Below are positions 3,296 to 30,891 of a DNA stretch of 30,891 nucleotides, piece by piece. Made by a program: the position numbers and the translations under genes. The stretch's first letter is position 1. Each line of letters begins with the position of its first letter. The DNA is from a virus. The notes below the pieces were generated by a model. That model was given only the letters and a program-made list of their open reading frames with translations, did no database searches and was not told where the DNA came from. The stretch is taken from positions 1 to 30,891 of IMG/VR virus record IMGVR_UViG_3300037041_000357. One strand, written 5' to 3'.

Positions 3296-3552
3296 AGTTA
3301 CTGCCAGAATTTAAAGGTAAAAAAGTGACAGCCAAAGCAATAAACGGATATATCACTTTTGACACCAACACAACACCAGAAAGCGAATACCCTTCGTTCT
3401 ATTCTTTGGGGTTTGATTTCTGTTTTGAAGTCACTGAACCGAAATACAAAAAGCCAATTTCATACACTGGGATTGAACAAGAAACTGACTTAATAAAACC
3501 TAATAAAAAAAAGAATGCAAAGAAGGAAAAAACTGAAACCGAAAAGGGTTAA
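3292..3552 (+). CDS. Hypothetical protein, 86 aa
   Basis: I do not recognise a family. The N-terminal two thirds look like a small beta-rich domain (MKLLPEFKGKKVTAKAINGY, then TFDTNTTPE and LGFDFCFEV), and the tail is highly lysine/glutamate-rich. The start overlaps the preceding stop by four bases (ATGA) and the end overlaps the small terminase gene by 38 bases, so the coding frames are packed. Position suggests a structural or packaging accessory protein, without direct evidence. Confidence 0.6.
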   Translation: MKLLPEFKGKKVTAKAINGYITFDTNTTPESEYPSFYSLGFDFCFEVTEPKYKKPISYTGIEQETDLIKPNKKKNAKKEKTETEKG

Positions 3553-3886
3553 GTTTATAGATGAATATATCCTTTCTAATAATGGCACAGCCGCCGCAAT
3601 AAAAGCTGGTTATTCAGAACATACCGCAGCTGTTATTGCGTGTGAACTATTGGCGAATCCAGATGTGAAAGCTGAATATGAATTTCGATATGCAGCTTAC
3701 AAAAAGAAGAACGAAATCAAACGGGAATTTATAGTTGAGAATCTTATGCAACTGATCTCTGAATGTAAGAATGACAATGACCGAAAGCATCTGACAAAGT
3801 CGCTTGATATGTTGGCAAAAATGTCTGGTCAATACATTCAGACTGTTATCAATAAAATAGAAGATCAACCACTATTTCCAGAATAA
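3515..3886 (+). CDS. terS: Terminase small subunit
   Basis: The 123-residue product has the typical small-terminase helix-turn-helix near the N-terminus (KFIDEYILSNNGTAAAIKAG followed by YSEHTAAVIACELLANPDV), the same pattern as Terminase_2 family proteins, then a helical oligomerisation region and a short C-terminal tail PLFPE. It would recognise the packaging site on phage DNA and recruit the large subunit. The stop TAA (3884-3886) is followed directly by the ATG of the large subunit, which supports the call. The start lies within the end of the upstream gene; a later start would cut into the HTH, so 3515 is preferred. Confidence 0.88.
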   Translation: MQRRKKLKPKRVKFIDEYILSNNGTAAAIKAGYSEHTAAVIACELLANPDVKAEYEFRYAAYKKKNEIKREFIVENLMQLISECKNDNDRKHLTKSLDMLAKMSGQYIQTVINKIEDQPLFPE

Positions 3887-16811: not shown

Positions 16812-17444
16812 TTAAAATAATTTAGTTTGGTTTGTATGGTTTGTTATTCGTTCAATTGCTTTGTTATAGTATTCAGTGTCAAGTTCACAAGCGGTCAAGT
16901 CAAATCCGTAATCATGACAAGCAATGGCAATACTTCCGCTGCCTAAATGCGTGTCAAGGATTTTGTCGCCTTGCTTAGCGTATTTTTCCAAGCAATATTT
17001 ATATAATTCAAAAGGCTTTGCCGTTGGATGAAATTTTTCAATCATTGTATTATTACTTTTAATACATCCTGCTCTACTAAATTCAAAAATACGCATTGCT
17101 TTATTAAATGACGTCCAAGCCATTTCACCATCAGCTAAAGTAAATCCTCTTTGTCCTTTATCCCAAATAATCCAACCCATTGACGGATGTAAATATTCAG
17201 TCATATAATTTCCACCCCATACTATTTGATTTTTTGAAACTCGAAATAATTCTTTAAAATATTCTTTATTAGGTATTGTCTTATCCCAATCACTTCTTTT
17301 GTATTGTTTCCATCCAAATTCTTCTAATCCAAATTTTTTAGCAGCATCAATCCCATACGGCGGGTCAACAATAGCCAAATCAAAATAGTTATCAGGATAA
17401 CGAGCCATTAAAATCATATTGTCTTCGTTGGTTATATTTAGCAT
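16812..17444 (-). CDS. DNA N6-adenine/N4-cytosine methyltransferase (beta-type order)
   Basis: The 210-residue product has the catalytic DPPYG at residues 27-31 and, later, HPTAKP at 139-144, the SAM-binding DTHLGSGS at 164-171 and ACELD at 185-189. The catalytic motif preceding the SAM motif marks the N6_N4 family of beta-type order. DPPY favours adenine-N6 methylation. It is short, with only a small target-recognition region (about 45-130). No restriction enzyme is encoded nearby, so self-protection against host restriction, or regulation, is likely. It is transcribed away from the protease gene from a 39-base intergenic gap, and its base use appears more AT-rich than its neighbours. Confidence 0.88.
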   Translation of the reverse strand: MLNITNEDNMILMARYPDNYFDLAIVDPPYGIDAAKKFGLEEFGWKQYKRSDWDKTIPNKEYFKELFRVSKNQIVWGGNYMTEYLHPSMGWIIWDKGQRGFTLADGEMAWTSFNKAMRIFEFSRAGCIKSNNTMIEKFHPTAKPFELYKYCLEKYAKQGDKILDTHLGSGSIAIACHDYGFDLTACELDTEYYNKAIERITNHTNQTKLF

Positions 17445-17460
17445 AATTTAAAAATCAAAA

Positions 17461-17480
17461 GGGTTTATTATAATATATAA
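17461..17480 (+). promoter_or_regulatory. Late-gene element, copy 3, with GGGTT extension
   Basis: GGGTTTAT followed by the exact 12-mer TATAATATATAA (17469-17480), ending three bases before the protease-scaffold ATG at 17484. It matches 11694-11713 in 19 of 20 bases. It lies in the 39-base divergent gap shared with the methyltransferase, so it must serve here as the upstream signal for the capsid operon. Confidence 0.6.
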
Positions 17481-17483
17481 GTA

Positions 17484-18485
17484 ATGAATTTACCAAAGTA
17501 CAAAATAACAATTGACGAAGCTTACGGTGACGGCGAAGATTTGGGTATTTCTCAAATTGCATTCACCGCAACACCAGCAATAAAAGTCAAAGGTATGGCT
17601 TTTTCTTCAAACGAAAAAAGATATTTTGCCGATGATGTGAAAATGCGTATTGCTGCTCCAGCTTTGATTCCGATGGAAATTTACCGTTGTGATGAGGATG
17701 GCGAATATTTCGCTGAATTTACGGTTGAAGAAATTGAAAGATTGACGTCAAAGTTTATGGCAAACCTTACCAACAGCGGCAAATTCAACCTTGAACACAA
17801 AGAAGGTGACGTTGCTCCAGCTTACATTTTAGAAGCTTGGATTGTGAACGATCCAACAGCGGACAAGGCAAAAAGTACATTCAACATTGATGTCCCAAAA
17901 GGAACATTGATGATTGTCAGCCAAGTGACTGATTTAGATTATTACAATCAACTTGTTGCCAATGGCCAAGTTGGTTTTTCTATTGAAGGATTCCTTGGAT
18001 TGAAATTATCAGAACAAATCGAAAAACACAAAAATAAATTTACAATGGAAAACAAACCAACAACACTCCCAGAGGGAACAAAATTTGAAGTCGATGGCAT
18101 CAAATACATCGTAAAGGATGGCAAAGTAATGACTGAAGCTTTGGAAGAAGCGGTTGTTGCAGATACAACAGAAGCACAAATGGCACTTCCATTGGATGAA
18201 GTTCCAGCTGAAGAAATGCCAGTTGAAGAAATGGCTGTTGAACCAGTTGTTGAACCAGTTGCAGTTGTTGAACCTGTTGTTGCGGCTCCAGCTGCAATGC
18301 CAACTGAAGCGGAAATTCTTGCAATCATTCAGCCGAAGCTTGATGAAATTTACAAGATGATAGCGGACCTAAAAGCGGAACACGCTGGAATGATGATGCC
18401 TGAAGTTGAAGTTGAACTGACAAAAACAAAGATGTCTATTCACGATAGATTCAGCGAAGTGATGAAGCTGTCAAAAGAAAATTAA
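17484..18485 (+). CDS. Prohead protease fused to scaffold (XkdF/S78_2-like)
   Basis: The first ~175 residues resemble XkdF-type prohead proteases: FTATPAIKVKGMAF, the catalytic histidine in NLEHKEG (H105), YILEAWIV, and the serine in VGFSIEGF (S166). The remainder is a scaffold: a start-like MENKPTTLPEGTKF at residue 188, a Glu/Pro/Val-rich low-complexity region (about 240-275) and a C-terminal coiled coil. An internal ATG at 18045, preceded by an A-rich leader, could make free scaffold, as with lambda C/Nu3. It sits directly upstream of the major capsid gene, the normal position for both functions. Confidence 0.82.
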   Translation: MNLPKYKITIDEAYGDGEDLGISQIAFTATPAIKVKGMAFSSNEKRYFADDVKMRIAAPALIPMEIYRCDEDGEYFAEFTVEEIERLTSKFMANLTNSGKFNLEHKEGDVAPAYILEAWIVNDPTADKAKSTFNIDVPKGTLMIVSQVTDLDYYNQLVANGQVGFSIEGFLGLKLSEQIEKHKNKFTMENKPTTLPEGTKFEVDGIKYIVKDGKVMTEALEEAVVADTTEAQMALPLDEVPAEEMPVEEMAVEPVVEPVAVVEPVVAAPAAMPTEAEILAIIQPKLDEIYKMIADLKAEHAGMMMPEVEVELTKTKMSIHDRFSEVMKLSKEN

Positions 18486-23758: not shown

Positions 23759-23780
23759 ACTTATAATCTCTCTAAATAAG

Positions 23781-23809
23781 ACCTACACTGCAATAGCGGT
23801 GTGGGTTTT
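23781..23809 (+). terminator. Rho-independent terminator ending the late block
   Basis: An 11-bp stem (23781-23791 with 23796-23806, containing two G-T pairs) with an AATA loop is followed by a short T run. It separates the late genes from the start of the replication operon. Confidence 0.8.
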
Positions 23810-23876
23810 CTTGCTTTTGGCTTATTTGTAATCATTATAAATAACAAATAAATGTTTTTTATGTAAAACTTTAATA

Positions 23877-23884
23877 TACATTTG
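23877..23884 (+). promoter_or_regulatory. Bacteroidota-type -7 box before RHH gene
   Basis: TACATTTG fits the TAnnTTTG consensus of Bacteroidota promoters and lies 32 bases upstream of the ribbon-helix-helix ATG. An upstream T-rich stretch (23853-23860) stands at the expected -33 distance but is not an exact TTTG. It probably drives the early operon. Confidence 0.5.
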
Positions 23885-23916
23885 TAAAACTAAATTAAAC
23901 AATTAAAATAAAAACA

Positions 23917-24060
23917 ATGGCAACAGAATTTAAAGGAATAAGAATTGACACCAACACAATCAAATTCTTAAAAAAACAAGCGAACCTTGAAGGAAGGACC
24001 TTCAGCGGAATAGTAAACAAAATCCTAAAAGAATATCAAGATGCAAACAATAAAAATTAA
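23917..24060 (+). CDS. Ribbon-helix-helix regulator, 47 aa
   Basis: The product reads as a minimal RHH (Arc/CopG-like) protein: a beta strand GIRIDTNT, helix A with IKFLKKQANLEG and helix B with TFSGIVNKILKEYQ. Such dimers bind short, often inverted DNA sites and usually repress their own operon. It is the first gene after the early promoter, the usual place for an autoregulator. A sequence similar to the repeats at 29140-29392 lies just upstream (23894-23912; 16 of 19 bases), a possible operator. Start chosen because it is the first ATG after an A-rich leader. Confidence 0.7.
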   Translation: MATEFKGIRIDTNTIKFLKKQANLEGRTFSGIVNKILKEYQDANNKN

Positions 24061-24160
24061 AAGTACAGTCCAGCCAGATCACAGATTCATTTCTTATTCG
24101 GCTTGGATGAAGTACATCAAGAACAGAAACAACAAAGCACTAACCAAAACAATCAAATAA
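24041..24160 (+). CDS. Small basic hypothetical protein, 39 aa
   Basis: This ORF overlaps the end of the RHH gene by 20 bases and ends one base before the next ATG (TAA-A-ATG). The product is basic (QTIKIKSTVQ, SAWMKYIKNRNNK) with no recognised fold. Dense packing and the exact juxtaposition with the next start make it plausible, but at this length chance is possible. Confidence 0.4.
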   Translation: MQTIKIKSTVQPDHRFISYSAWMKYIKNRNNKALTKTIK

Positions 24161-24161
24161 A

Positions 24162-26010: not shown

Positions 26011-26340
26011 ATGAACATTAAAGGCAAAATCAGACTGATCGGCGAAACAGAACAAGTGTCCGACAAATTCAAAAAACGTGAACTGGTAGTGACTACCTTC
26101 GACAATCCAACTTATCCGCAACAAATTTCAATGCAATGCACAAATGACAAAGTTGTGATGCTTGACAATCTTACTGTCGGTCAAGAAGTGTCTATTGAAG
26201 CGAATTTGCGAGGGCGTGAGTGGACCAGTCCAACTGGACAAGTCAAGTATTTCAACACAATCGAATGTTGGAAGCTTGATGTGATCGGCGAAGCTATCAA
26301 ACCAGCTGCAACAGTTCCAGATGATGATTTGCCATTCTAA
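26011..26340 (+). CDS. ssb: Single-stranded DNA-binding protein (DUF3127-like)
   Basis: The 109-residue product is an OB-fold type protein with KGKIRLIGETEQVS, a conserved KRELVVTTFD strand and GQVKYFNTIECWKL. It ends in DDDLPF, the acidic tip that in SSB proteins binds partner replication enzymes. DUF3127 is known as a Bacteroidota SSB-like family. It follows the exonuclease after a short A-rich gap and precedes the primase/helicase genes. A Bacteroidota promoter (26328-26359) overlaps its 3' end. Confidence 0.85.
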   Translation: MNIKGKIRLIGETEQVSDKFKKRELVVTTFDNPTYPQQISMQCTNDKVVMLDNLTVGQEVSIEANLRGREWTSPTGQVKYFNTIECWKLDVIGEAIKPAATVPDDDLPF

Positions 26341-26488: not shown

Positions 26489-26767
26489 ATGAAAATGCCC
26501 TTTGGAAAATATAAAAATCAAAACATCACAGATATTGACACGTCATATTTGAACTGGCTTTTGAACAACACAACAAAGTTGGACTATTATCTAAAAAAGT
26601 ACATTCAAAACCACCTTGAAAGTCTTGAAAATTCTTTTGTTGATGTCAATGCCGAAGCAATCAAAAAGATTTATTATCAACTTTCAAAAAAATACCACCC
26701 CGACATGGGCGGATCAAATGAAGCAATGAAGGCAATAAACGAATTTTATAACCTACTAAAAAAATGA
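26489..26767 (+). CDS. DUF3820-like domain fused to DnaJ J-domain, 92 aa
   Basis: ATG 26489 is preferred: an in-frame ATG at 26417 would lie inside the hairpin region and add non-conserved residues. Residues 1-45 read MPFGKYKNQNITDID, SYLNWLLNN, a match to the small DUF3820 pattern. Residues about 53-92 are a J-domain fragment: IKKIYYQLSKKYHPDMGGS with the HPD tripeptide, and AMKAINEFYNLLKK. J-domains stimulate host DnaK. Located just upstream of primase and helicase genes, it might bring DnaK to remodel the replication complex. Its stop overlaps the primase ATG (ATGA). Confidence 0.7.
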   Translation: MKMPFGKYKNQNITDIDTSYLNWLLNNTTKLDYYLKKYIQNHLESLENSFVDVNAEAIKKIYYQLSKKYHPDMGGSNEAMKAINEFYNLLKK

Positions 26768-27627
26768 TATTTCAATACTATCCATCCGACATCAAGCAAT
26801 CAATTCCAATTGGGAACATTGCACTGGACACATTCCTTAAGGTCATCAAAAACCCAAAGCCAGAAACAAAACAGATCTTTGAACAGATTCTGATCGCACA
26901 CGAAAACAATGATCTGAAGCTTAAAGGTGAATTAAAAACAAAATTATACTATTTCACCCCTTGCGTGTCAGTCAAAGGTGCCAGAAGATATGACAACATT
27001 CAATCTTTCACCGGACTTCTTGTTTTAGACTTTGACAAGCTTGGAATCGACTATGCCATTGAGTTCAAACAATACTTATTTGATACCTATTCCTTTGTCA
27101 TTGCTTCGTGGTTGTCAGCTTCAAAACATGGTGTCCGGGCATTGGTGTCAATACCAAAATGCACAACCGTTGGCGAGTTTAAAGAATACTACAACGGAAT
27201 TGAAAACCTTCTGCAAGATTACAAAGGATTTGACAAAGCCGTAAAAAATTGTATATTGCCATTATTTTTGTCTTATGATGAAAATATTCTGTGCCGTCAA
27301 AAATACAGCACATTTTCAAAACGTATCGTGCCAGTCATTCAGCCAGTGATCAAGCAATACATTATCACTGACAAAACAAACAACATCAAAGCAATCATTC
27401 ATTCAGCAATCAGCAAGATTTCAGATGCTGGTCACCCAATACTTCGGGCAGCATCTTTTGCCCTTGGTGGTTATGTTGGTGCTGGTTATGTGTCCGAAGA
27501 TGTCGCACTGATCATCATTGAAAACGAAATTGAAAACAATAGCTACCTTAAACAGAAGTCAAGCGTCTACAAACAAACAGCATTCACAATGATTAAAAAA
27601 GGACAATTAACACCGCTATACTTATGA
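26764..27627 (+). CDS. Primase-like protein (BT4734/VirE N-terminal domain)
   Basis: The 287-residue product has KLYYFTPCVSVKGARRYDN at about 60-78, LLVLDFDKL at 85-93 (acidic pair D89/D91) and SWLSASKHGVRALVSIP at 115-131, the conserved BT4734/VirE-N blocks that contain the polymerase/primase-type catalytic core. A C-terminal helical part with a hydrophobic LRAASFALGGYVGAGY segment is PriCT-like. It overlaps the helicase gene by four bases. Together they would prime and unwind phage DNA. Confidence 0.75.
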   Translation: MIFQYYPSDIKQSIPIGNIALDTFLKVIKNPKPETKQIFEQILIAHENNDLKLKGELKTKLYYFTPCVSVKGARRYDNIQSFTGLLVLDFDKLGIDYAIEFKQYLFDTYSFVIASWLSASKHGVRALVSIPKCTTVGEFKEYYNGIENLLQDYKGFDKAVKNCILPLFLSYDENILCRQKYSTFSKRIVPVIQPVIKQYIITDKTNNIKAIIHSAISKISDAGHPILRAASFALGGYVGAGYVSEDVALIIIENEIENNSYLKQKSSVYKQTAFTMIKKGQLTPLYL

Positions 27628-29144
27628 GCAAGTTCAAAGATTTATCCAAATCAAAGATTTTCAACCCAATCGACTGGTTCAACTTTTATGGTGAGTTTTC
27701 CATAATTTTCACCGGGAACAGAAACGCAAACATCATCAATGAAAATGAAGTTTCTTTCTATTCAGATGAAAACATTCGCAAACCGACTTTTGTACTGAAC
27801 GCAAAGAATCTGGTCAATGTCAAAAAGGAAAACGAATTTGATCTGGCCACCGGGATTGAGATTTCAAAGTTTATGCTTCTGACCATTTGCAAATTTAAGG
27901 GCAACTACAACACCGCAATGTCATTTGTTTACTACAACTTAATGAAGTCAGAAATTCCTTACATTCGAGTTGGAACAGATTATTTCAAAGTAATCGAGAA
28001 ACCGAACAGATATTCAGGAAAGAACACGATCATCAAAGTTTGGGATAAAGCAACCATTGTTGAAGATCACACCAAAGAGCTGCTGAAGTACATTTTTCGT
28101 TATGACGAATTCACCATTGAACCAAACAACAAAATCTATACACCCGTGATTGATGGATGTTACAATCTTTATTCAAAATTCTCACATTCTGAACACTTGG
28201 ACAACGTCACACTGGATGACATTCCCTTTTCAAACGGAATCATGCAGCACTTCTTTGGTGAACAAGTTGAAGCTGGATATAGATATATGAAAATCCTATA
28301 CGAATATCCAAAGCAAATGCTGCCGATTCTGGTCCTTGTTTCTGAAGAACGTGGAACAGGAAAAACTACATTCTTGAACTGGATTGAAATGATCTTTGGC
28401 GAAAATTCAATTCTTATTAGTCCAGATGCACTGACCAGAGATTTCAATGCTTTGTATTCAAACAAGAACATCATCTGCATTGATGAAACACTGATCGAGA
28501 AATCACACGCTGTTGAAAAACTGAAGTCACTGGCAACAGCCAAATCAATCAGCGTGGCCCAAAAATTCGTTTCTGAATACTCAATTCCCTTTTATGGCAA
28601 ACTTATTCTTTGCACAAACAAAGAAACCGACTTCATGCGTATTGATGAAGATGAAGTGCGTTTTTGGATTCGCAAGCTGAATCACATCGACAACCTGAAC
28701 ACAATGATTGAAAAGGACATCTTCAAAGAGATCCCGAAATTGCTGAAATACCTTTCAAGTCTGCCAGAAATTGATTTCAGCAAATCACGGATGGTTTTCA
28801 CCAAAGAAGAAATTGTGACTGAAAATTTGCGAAATGTACAAGAAGAAAGCAAATCTAGCTTATTTAAGGAACTTTGTGAACGCTTTGAAGATTACTTTAA
28901 CGAAAAGGAAGTAAATTCATTAGAAGCGACACCTACCGACATAAAAGATAAATGGTTTAGGAATGATTCAAAGATTTCCGCTTCTTACATAAAAAAGGTG
29001 CTAAAAAATGAATTTAAGCTGATTCCGAGTGACAATAAATACTACTATTCCATTTTGAGTGAAACAAGCAATAAAAAGATGGGAAGGTCCTATTTCATTG
29101 AGAGAAGCGAATATTTTGACTACAATCCCAAAGAACCGTTTTAA
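27624..29144 (+). CDS. SF3-like replicative helicase (DUF5906/D5-type)
   Basis: The 506-residue product carries Walker A RGTGKTT around residues 243-249, Walker B IICIDE at 283-288, sensor LILCTN at 327-332 and an arginine-finger-like FWIRKL near 347-352. These match SF3/DUF5906-type phage helicases of Bacteroidota, commonly coupled to BT4734-type primases. The N-terminal 200 residues are less conserved and may interact with the primase. Downstream lies an AT-rich repeat region that is a good candidate for its origin. The stop codon overlaps the first 19-bp repeat. Confidence 0.85.
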   Translation: MSKFKDLSKSKIFNPIDWFNFYGEFSIIFTGNRNANIINENEVSFYSDENIRKPTFVLNAKNLVNVKKENEFDLATGIEISKFMLLTICKFKGNYNTAMSFVYYNLMKSEIPYIRVGTDYFKVIEKPNRYSGKNTIIKVWDKATIVEDHTKELLKYIFRYDEFTIEPNNKIYTPVIDGCYNLYSKFSHSEHLDNVTLDDIPFSNGIMQHFFGEQVEAGYRYMKILYEYPKQMLPILVLVSEERGTGKTTFLNWIEMIFGENSILISPDALTRDFNALYSNKNIICIDETLIEKSHAVEKLKSLATAKSISVAQKFVSEYSIPFYGKLILCTNKETDFMRIDEDEVRFWIRKLNHIDNLNTMIEKDIFKEIPKLLKYLSSLPEIDFSKSRMVFTKEEIVTENLRNVQEESKSSLFKELCERFEDYFNEKEVNSLEATPTDIKDKWFRNDSKISASYIKKVLKNEFKLIPSDNKYYYSILSETSNKKMGRSYFIERSEYFDYNPKEPF

Positions 29145-29392
29145 ACAATTAAACAAAACGCAAAATATTTTGTTTGAGGTTAAAGAGTTGAAAATCAGAA
29201 TTTTAAACGATTTAAACAATTAAACAAAAATTTCTGCAAACCCTTTGTAAATTAAAAAATGCTATGTTGTTACTCTTTTTTTCTCTTTTATTTTGTTTAA
29301 TTGTTTAAATAGTATATAAAGTCAATGGTAGTAAGGGATTCCGTTTAAACAAAATTTAAACAAAATATTTTCATTTTGTTTAATTGTTTAAA
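29140..29392. repeat. Four 19-bp direct/inverted repeats, candidate origin
   Basis: TTTAAACAATTAAACAAAA occurs exactly at 29140-29158 and 29211-29229, and its reverse complement exactly at 29291-29309 and 29374-29392. Two tandem 11-mers TTTAAACAAAA lie at 29344-29354 and 29355-29365, and a CAAAATATTTTG palindrome at 29161-29172. The 275-base gap 29145-29419 has no gene. This layout of AT-rich iterons after the helicase gene resembles a replication origin; an alternative is a multi-operator control region for the downstream nuclease. Confidence 0.75.
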
Positions 29393-29419
29393 AAGTACAA
29401 ATTTTAAAAACCTAAAAAA

Positions 29420-29905
29420 ATGACAAAACTGAAAGATTTGATTGAACTGAAACACAAAATTGAATGTCAAAAATATCCGTCAATGCCACCAGATTACATT
29501 CCGTTAACCAAGTTTACGGACAAAACTGCCAACGGATTAACAAAATGCGTGATTGCGTGGATAAATTTGAACGGTGGACAAGCCGAACGCATCAACACAA
29601 TGGGCCGAATGCTGGACAAAACCAAAGTTGTGTCCGATACATTTGGAAATAAGCGGACCATCGGAAGCGTTGAATGGCAAAAAGGAACAGGGCAAAAGGG
29701 ATCTGCGGACATTTCTGCAACCATTCAAGGCCGAAGTGTCAAGATTGAAGTAAAAATGAAAGACAAACAGTCAATTGACCAGATCAAATATCAAAATGAC
29801 ATTGAGAACGCTGGCGGTCAATATTGGCTTGTTCACAACTTTGATGAATTTATGTTCCACTACGAATGCTTTATTGATTACTTAACTAATAACAAACCCC
29901 AATGA
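29420..29905 (+). CDS. VRR-NUC type nuclease (PD-(D/E)XK)
   Basis: The 161-residue product has a TGQKGSADISA segment (D97), VKIEVKMKD (E110, K112) and IKYQNDIENAGGQYWL, the signature of VRR-NUC nucleases that cut branched DNA. It could resolve replication or recombination intermediates before packaging. The start is the first ATG after the repeat-rich gap, preceded by an A-rich leader. It overlaps the helix-turn-helix gene by four bases. A Holliday-junction resolvase from a related fold is the alternative. Confidence 0.75.
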   Translation: MTKLKDLIELKHKIECQKYPSMPPDYIPLTKFTDKTANGLTKCVIAWINLNGGQAERINTMGRMLDKTKVVSDTFGNKRTIGSVEWQKGTGQKGSADISATIQGRSVKIEVKMKDKQSIDQIKYQNDIENAGGQYWLVHNFDEFMFHYECFIDYLTNNKPQ

Positions 29906-30126
29906 AACAATCCAAAAAGTCAATCCAAACAGAAAAATATGTTGACCTTTACATTGAAATGAATGACGGCAGACCGCCAACATACAAGGAAATTGAAGAA
30001 CGGTTCAATGTCAAACGGACTTCGGCATACAACAGATGCAAGGATTTCAGGCACAAAATGTCACAACATTCACAGACCGAAACAGTCATTGATCAGTACA
30101 TTCGTAAATTTAAACAAGTCGCATAA
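29902..30126 (+). CDS. Small helix-turn-helix DNA-binding protein, 74 aa
   Basis: The product begins KQSKKSIQTEKYVDLYIEMN, with PPTYKEIEERFNVKRTSAYN forming a winged or LexA-like helix-turn-helix, and a charged C-terminal helix. It probably regulates transcription or helps in packaging. Its start overlaps the VRR-NUC stop (ATGA). A partial copy is at 1-150. In the right-hand copy it is followed by 18 bases and then the glycosyltransferase gene; in the left-hand copy an extra small gene separates them. Confidence 0.7.
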   Translation: MKQSKKSIQTEKYVDLYIEMNDGRPPTYKEIEERFNVKRTSAYNRCKDFRHKMSQHSQTETVIDQYIRKFKQVA

Positions 30127-30144
30127 ACTAAACAAACAACACTA

Positions 30145-30783
30145 ATGAAAATAAAAATCATTATCTTTTCATACGAAAGACGACAGATGCTGGAACGCTT
30201 GATTTCGGAAGTCAAAGAATATGACTACACAATCTTTGATGACGGTTCAAGCTTCAAGCTGTCCAAAAACTTTCACCAGTTTCAACACGGTGGCAAACCG
30301 AAGTTCTGGCGGATGTGGGACTATGCACTGCGGATGCTTCGTGATGACCATTCAGATCTGTTCATCTTTATGCCGTCAGATGTGTCAAACGTCAACATCC
30401 CAAAGATCATTGAACTACACAATCAGTTCAAAGCCAAGCCGTATGCGTATAATCTTATCAATGATGGCCGAAAAAACTGCTGGAATATGATTAAGCCAGT
30501 GCAAGTTGATGAACACACAATGAAGGTTGGATTCACTGATTGCGGATTCTTTTGCAATAAACAACTGTTGAATCGAATTGGTCACTATGTGAACGAAATC
30601 AATCCCCGAAGATTTGAACACAACGAAGCAATCAGTTCTGGTGTTGGTCAAGATTTGACCTTCAGGATGCTACGGACCAACTGCAATATGTACACGCCGA
30701 CAAAGTCACTTGTTTATCACGGTGATCACGAAAGCTTGATGCATCCAAAAGAACGGATAAAAAATCCATTAATAAGCAAATGA
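30145..30783 (+). CDS. Glycosyltransferase-like protein (GT-A fold), variant 2
   Basis: This 212-residue product is the same length as that at 382-1020 and differs at about 18 residues, with no frame change. FDDGS and FMPSDV are conserved, while changes are spread, with a small cluster in the last 20 residues (HPKERIKNP in place of HPEHRKKIP). Many synonymous changes indicate selection to keep the protein. It is best seen as an allele of the same gene from a second strain, not a paralogue, though a duplication cannot be excluded. Overlaps the next gene by four bases. Confidence 0.75.
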   Translation: MKIKIIIFSYERRQMLERLISEVKEYDYTIFDDGSSFKLSKNFHQFQHGGKPKFWRMWDYALRMLRDDHSDLFIFMPSDVSNVNIPKIIELHNQFKAKPYAYNLINDGRKNCWNMIKPVQVDEHTMKVGFTDCGFFCNKQLLNRIGHYVNEINPRRFEHNEAISSGVGQDLTFRMLRTNCNMYTPTKSLVYHGDHESLMHPKERIKNPLISK

Positions 30784-30891
30784 AAACAGAAACAAACACA
30801 CTAAAAGATGGCACAGTCATCACTGGCTTCAAGAATGATTTAATCACTAACGGCCACAAAACAACAAAGAACTTTTATGAATTTCAGATGC
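30780..30891 (+). CDS. FkbM methyltransferase, 3'-truncated copy at window end
   Basis: The first 37 codons, identical in sequence to the start of the gene at 1017-1667, run to the end of the window. Truncated only by the end of the sequence. The identity with the left copy marks the point where the circular genome joins. Confidence 0.85.
   Translation, partial: MKTETNTLKDGTVITGFKNDLITNGHKTTKNFYEFQM

Follow-up and report, generated by a model that had tools for sequence, protein, structure and literature searches.

An iteron-bearing gap behind an SF3-type helicase gene as the probable replication origin in a group of uncultivated phages

What is the role of a gene-free, A+T-rich gap that follows directly on a helicase gene and is filled with short repeats in both orientations? 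The question is raised by IMG/VR record IMGVR_UViG_3300037041_000357, a viral sequence of 30,891 nt that was analysed over its full length and is referred to here as the window. The record is that of a tailed phage and encodes terminase, portal, capsid-like and endolysin proteins. On the 5' side of the gap the gene order is exonuclease, SSB, DnaJ-like protein, BT4734-like candidate primase and DUF5906 helicase, and no DNA polymerase was recognised among the subset of translated proteins that was searched. The genes around the gap and the gap itself are as follows.

26011..26340, + strand: single-strand DNA-binding protein (DUF3127; Pfam DUF3127 E=4e-23, PHROG SSB E=1e-29)
26764..27627, + strand: BT4734-like N-terminal-domain protein, candidate primase partner (Pfam PF08800 E=5e-11; weak PHROG "DNA primase/helicase" match, E=8e-8)
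27624..29144, + strand: DUF5906 SF3-type helicase of 506 aa, proposed to bind the origin and to load itself (Pfam DUF5906 E=4e-18; PHROG "DNA primase" families)
28821..29141, + strand: C-terminal domain of the helicase, residues 400-506, a predicted winged helix and proposed iteron reader (from the model; varies between iteron classes)
29145..29419, no strand: proposed replication origin, 275 bp, 20% GC, gene-free, with ten iterons, the first of which begins just before the gap
29420..29905, + strand: nuclease-like protein, first gene 3' of the gap (weak PHROG endonuclease match)

The gap begins directly at the helicase stop codon. A preliminary description of the sequence had called it the only large gene-free gap. 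There is a longer gap of 403 bp at 23759-24161, but a small RHH-like ORF lies in it, so that 29145-29419 (275 bp) is the largest truly gene-free stretch of the record. This ORF (23917-24060) encodes 47 aa, and directly 5' of it a site resembling the 19-mer described below, with 3 mismatches, is found at 23894-23912. The repeats that had been reported for 29140-29392 were recovered as well: four exact copies of the 19-mer TTTAAACAATTAAACAAAA, two per strand, which are absent from the rest of the record, and the tandem 11-mers TTTAAACAAAA, which start at 29344 and 29355. In the list below, L005 denotes a contig that is 97% identical to the window, and the matches of the two non-iteron blocks to those of relatives were made by eye.

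29140-29158, + strand: 19-mer copy 1, overlapping the helicase stop codon; iterons 29141-29148 and 29149-29156; exact in L005
29188..29198, no strand: TTGAAAATCAG, matching the TGA(T/A/C)AATCA block that lies 5' of the inner forward iterons in many relatives
29211-29229, + strand: 19-mer copy 2; iterons 29212-29219 and 29220-29227; exact in L005
29249..29323, no strand: A+T-rich stretch between the arrays, a possible DNA-unwinding element
29291-29309, - strand: 19-mer copy 3, inverted; iterons 29293-29300 and 29301-29308; exact in L005
29324..29343, no strand: AATGGTAGTAAGGGATTCCG, matching the "GTAGTAAGGG...C" box just 5' of the right-hand direct iterons in many relatives
29344..29366, + strand: the two direct 11-mers TTTAAACAAAA; iterons 29345-29352 and 29356-29363
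29374-29392, - strand: 19-mer copy 4, inverted; iterons 29376-29383 and 29384-29391; outside the L005 contig

As had been claimed, such an arrangement is not expected by chance. At up to 3 mismatches the 19-mer has 5 matches where 0.28 are expected, a number reached by none of 100 shuffles. The longest repeat of the gap (20 nt) was equalled in 0 of 600 order-1 and order-2 simulations of the gap and in about 2 of 300 order-3 simulations. Across IMG/VR, more than one exact copy of the 19-mer is found only in L005 besides the window, while 11 other contigs hold one copy each, which matches the chance level. Each 19-mer has the form T-TTAAACAA-TTAAACAA-AA, which implies that the biological unit is the octamer TTAAACAA. 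This octamer occurs 10 times in the gap (6 forward, 4 reverse) against 9 times in the other ~30.6 kb, so that it is 117-fold denser in the gap, and no second cluster rich in it was found elsewhere in the window. The iterons of the two 11-mers are spaced by 11 bp, which is also the spacing in relatives' right-hand arrays. Another proposed element, the palindrome CAAAATATTTTG, is present at 29161-29172 but was rejected as a key part of the gap because it is not kept in L005, whereas the three 19-mers that this contig covers are exact. No DnaA box TTATCCACA was found in the gap at 0-1 mismatch.

IMG/VR searches with the helicase gave about 45 loci, which represent 17 lineages: 16 intact ones at less than 92% identity, the window counted, and the frame-broken L139. 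All 17 carry an A+T-rich iteron gap of ~190-450 bp right after the helicase stop. The iterons, 6-13 in number in the relatives, are lineage-specific but follow one shared pattern and occur in both orientations; the classes listed here were assigned by eye.

TTAAACAA: window
GGTAAAAA: L087, L113, L105
GTAACAAA: L090, L108
GTAAATGA: L098, L116
ATCGTAAA: L117
AGTAATAA: L100, L115, L118, L121, L128
TGTAATAA: L124
TGTAAAAA: L109, L110, L141

Among closely spaced iterons on the same strand, 11 bp is the commonest distance (40 of 94). Against shuffles, the gap repeats reach p<=0.01 in most relatives and p 0.05-0.10 in L107, L119 and L120, the automatic run for L139 having begun the gap at a wrong start. 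Set against 280-bp windows of its own locus, the gap ranks first by repeat score in 16 of 17 representatives and is tied in L100. A chance ORF of 65 aa lies within the gap in L100-L104, L106 and L132, and for L100 and L102 the array was confirmed by inspection by hand. The usual order of elements begins with a left cluster and a TGAnAATCA block; inner forward iterons come next, then reverse iterons and an A+T-rich run, and a GTAGTAAGGG-like box precedes the right cluster. L117 and L141 deviate from this order; many relatives have TATATA runs at the place equivalent to 29249-29323. The TGA(T/A/C)AATCA and GTAGTAAGGG... blocks, which are not iterons, occupy the same places of the gap in diverged lineages. 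A further block, ACGTCAGAGTTTT, recurs in several relatives and was not found in the window. In L139 (record G010, 17201-17573, - strand) stop codons, due to either sequencing error or decay, break the C-terminal frame of the helicase, and the downstream iteron array looks intact; because of the broken frame, this lineage was left out of the protein statistics. Beyond IMG/VR, a scan of bacterial genome contigs with the helicase alignment gave no relative, INPHARED held no close relative of the helicase, its sole match being remote (25% identity), and a literature search for a described iteron origin of Bacteroidota phages returned nothing specific.

An indication of what reads the iterons comes from pairs of lineages in which the array differs while most of the helicase does not. 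The helicases of L109 and L118 have 3 differences in the first ~405 residues and only 51% identity in the C-terminal domain, and alongside this change of domain the iteron changes from TGTAAAAA to AGTAATAA. At the DNA level, L110 and L118 are 87-99% identical in the N-terminal and SF3 parts of the helicase, about 60% identical across the C-terminal domain and the gap, and mostly 80-97% identical beyond. This is a natural swap in which the iteron gap changes with the C-terminal domain between conserved flanks. The association extends to the whole set: among pairs of comparable core identity, those that share an iteron have a C-terminal identity higher by 10 points, which none of 5000 label shuffles matches (17 representatives; the shuffle ignores phylogeny). 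The columns best associated with the iteron are residue 457 in the recognition helix and residues 469-488 in the wing. At position 457, most GTAA classes have R, GTAAATG has F, GTAAATC has S and the window has K. As the C-terminal domain adjoins the gap, physical linkage alone helps the two to move together.

DUF5906 is the sole domain above the cut-off in the helicase, and a fusion to a TOPRIM primase was not found in it. With the helicase model, Foldseek gave the C-terminal region of the NrS-1 polymerase as the best match (E 1e-9; 6LRB, 6K9C), with further matches to poxvirus D5/E5, the SaPI5 primase-helicase (7OLA, E 1e-4) and PriRep1. The C-terminal domain is predicted to be a winged helix, its model having the order helix-strand-helix-helix-strand-strand and a pLDDT of mostly 80-90. 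VIA-align matches of this domain are weak (Z at most 5.4) and of mixed folds, with mostly winged-helix DNA-binding proteins among the matches listed, where the P4 alpha domain does not appear. Foldseek with the C-terminal domain alone gave no match at E<=0.001, and the helicase profile found no relative among PDB sequences; neither search recovered the closest origin-binding domains.

Arrangements of this type are known from other replicons. SaPI Rep, a self-loading helicase, and SCCmec Cch2 each use the C-terminal domain to bind iterons that lie directly 3' of the gene encoding them, and in the case of Cch2 the isolated domain (residues 400-538) binds direct repeats 3' of the gene (PMC7581432). 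P4 alpha is an SF3-type helicase whose C-terminal winged helix binds the ori repeats, and in pRN1 the origin lies immediately 3' of a replication gene of the SF3 type, whose product carries a C-terminal winged helix (PMC4234260). Like the SaPI Rep/ori system, the window combines an SF3/D5-type AAA+ helicase with short direct repeats directly downstream of its gene, and fold comparison matches the helicase to the SaPI5 primase-helicase 7OLA; the SaPIs, however, are satellites of Firmicutes (S. aureus pathogenicity islands), whereas the window is a phage genome with a helicase devoid of a fused primase and with other iteron sequences. With Cch2 it shares the placement of the helicase gene in an operon that also encodes a separate primase system, but three 5-nt AAGTG iterons in SCCmec stand against ten octamers in both orientations in the window. 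P4 alpha resembles the window protein as an SF3-type helicase with a C-terminal winged helix, which is predicted in the latter, but is fused to a TOPRIM primase while primase and helicase are separate in the window, nor was a further iteron cluster comparable to the P4 crr found there. In pRN1 the position immediately 3' of the SF3 gene is the same, but its origin is a 100-nt stem-loop without iterons, while here the iterons are conserved and a stem-loop is not. For the NrS-1 polymerase C-terminal region, the top structural match of the whole helicase, the fold alone was compared. Judged by sequence and by analogy, the window fits the SaPI/Cch2 plan.

A replication origin was one of the options raised by the preliminary description, and it is well supported by the fixed position after the SF3 helicase in every lineage, the lineage-specific iterons, the 11-bp spacing and the joint exchange of domain and array. 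Taken with the model and the known systems, these findings make it highly probable that 29145-29419 is the replication origin of the phage, with iterons that seem to be bound by the C-terminal domain of the helicase itself. The ten TTAAACAA iterons, whose clusters lie on either side of A+T-rich DNA, would be bound by the winged-helix domain; helicase hexamers could then assemble at the gap, melt the A+T-rich part and load themselves, after which the primase-like protein, SSB and presumably a host polymerase would start replication. Support from GC skew is weak and mixed: in 3 of 12 records, the window not being one of them, the detrended minimum falls no more than 400 bp from the gap.

Other readings of the repeats have to be weighed against this model. 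An array of operators or promoters, to which a regulator (the RHH protein at 23917, an HTH protein at 29902 or the helicase) binds in order to control the downstream gene, would agree with the position of the repeats 5' of a gene, with the regulators encoded in the genome and with one weak Bacteroidota-type promoter candidate in the gap (29267, one mismatch). But the gene after the gap varies: most lineages have a nuclease there, L113 and L105 a DEAD-like helicase and L117 a different protein, and the nearest homologues of the window nuclease in other phages (L007-L019) lie elsewhere, without the helicase and without an iteron gap. The gap therefore goes with the helicase: the array stays although the downstream gene is unrelated, is absent 5' of the closest nucleases of other phages and changes when the C-terminal domain of the helicase does. 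Control of the downstream gene is thus an unlikely purpose of the array, although a promoter or operator could share the gap with the origin, and as binder the helicase is a likelier candidate than the RHH and HTH proteins.

The inverted repeats could instead form a large stem-loop that the SF3 protein recognises, as in pRN1, whose origin downstream of the SF3 gene is of this kind (PMC4234260), and the window does fold unusually well as single-stranded DNA (z -5.6), as does L090 (-5.7). By contrast, in many relatives (L087, L088, L098, L109, L115, L121 and L139) folding does not exceed that of shuffles, with z about -1.1 to +0.5, and the orientation of the iterons differs among lineages. With z ranging from -5.7 to +0.5 across lineages, the hairpins suggested earlier are not a conserved feature, and an origin that depends on them is very improbable. 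Lastly, repeat-rich noncoding DNA can act in packaging or recombination. The terminase small-subunit gene (3515-3886), however, lies ~4 kb from the gap on the circularised genome and the array co-varies with the helicase domain, which leaves a pac or recombination site with next to no probability. Chance, a hairpin origin and a plain operator all fare worse than an iteron origin.

The proposed origin belongs to a known kind, met here in a new phage group, and the exchange of the putative reader domain together with its iterons is unusually clear. More speculatively, and with rather more doubt than conviction, the C-terminal domain and the downstream iterons may constitute one exchangeable cassette for replication specificity in a large group of uncultivated phages. 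Such a cassette would be swapped between near-identical backbones, perhaps blocking co-infecting relatives or satellites from firing each other's origins, and the recognition-helix and wing residues, set against the iteron, might form a readable code. For a family of uncultivated phages, exact origins would become predictable from sequence alone. The many natural pairs of helicase domain and iteron, one of them a near-perfect domain swap, offer material on how self-loading SF3 helicases choose their origins and on how origin specificity changes in phage evolution.

With regard to the genomes themselves, the contig ends of the window overlap in diverged form: positions 1-169 and 371-1128 match the last ~915 bases (29977-30891) at 96% and 91% identity, respectively, and one version of the end has an additional short ORF (~200 bp). 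This diverged overlap makes a circularly permuted, essentially complete genome probable and suggests that it was assembled from strain variants. In records G001, G002, G005 and G009 the ends overlap by 52-329 bp, exactly or nearly so, which suggests that phages of this group have circular or permuted genomes of ~33-36 kb, recovered complete in these records.
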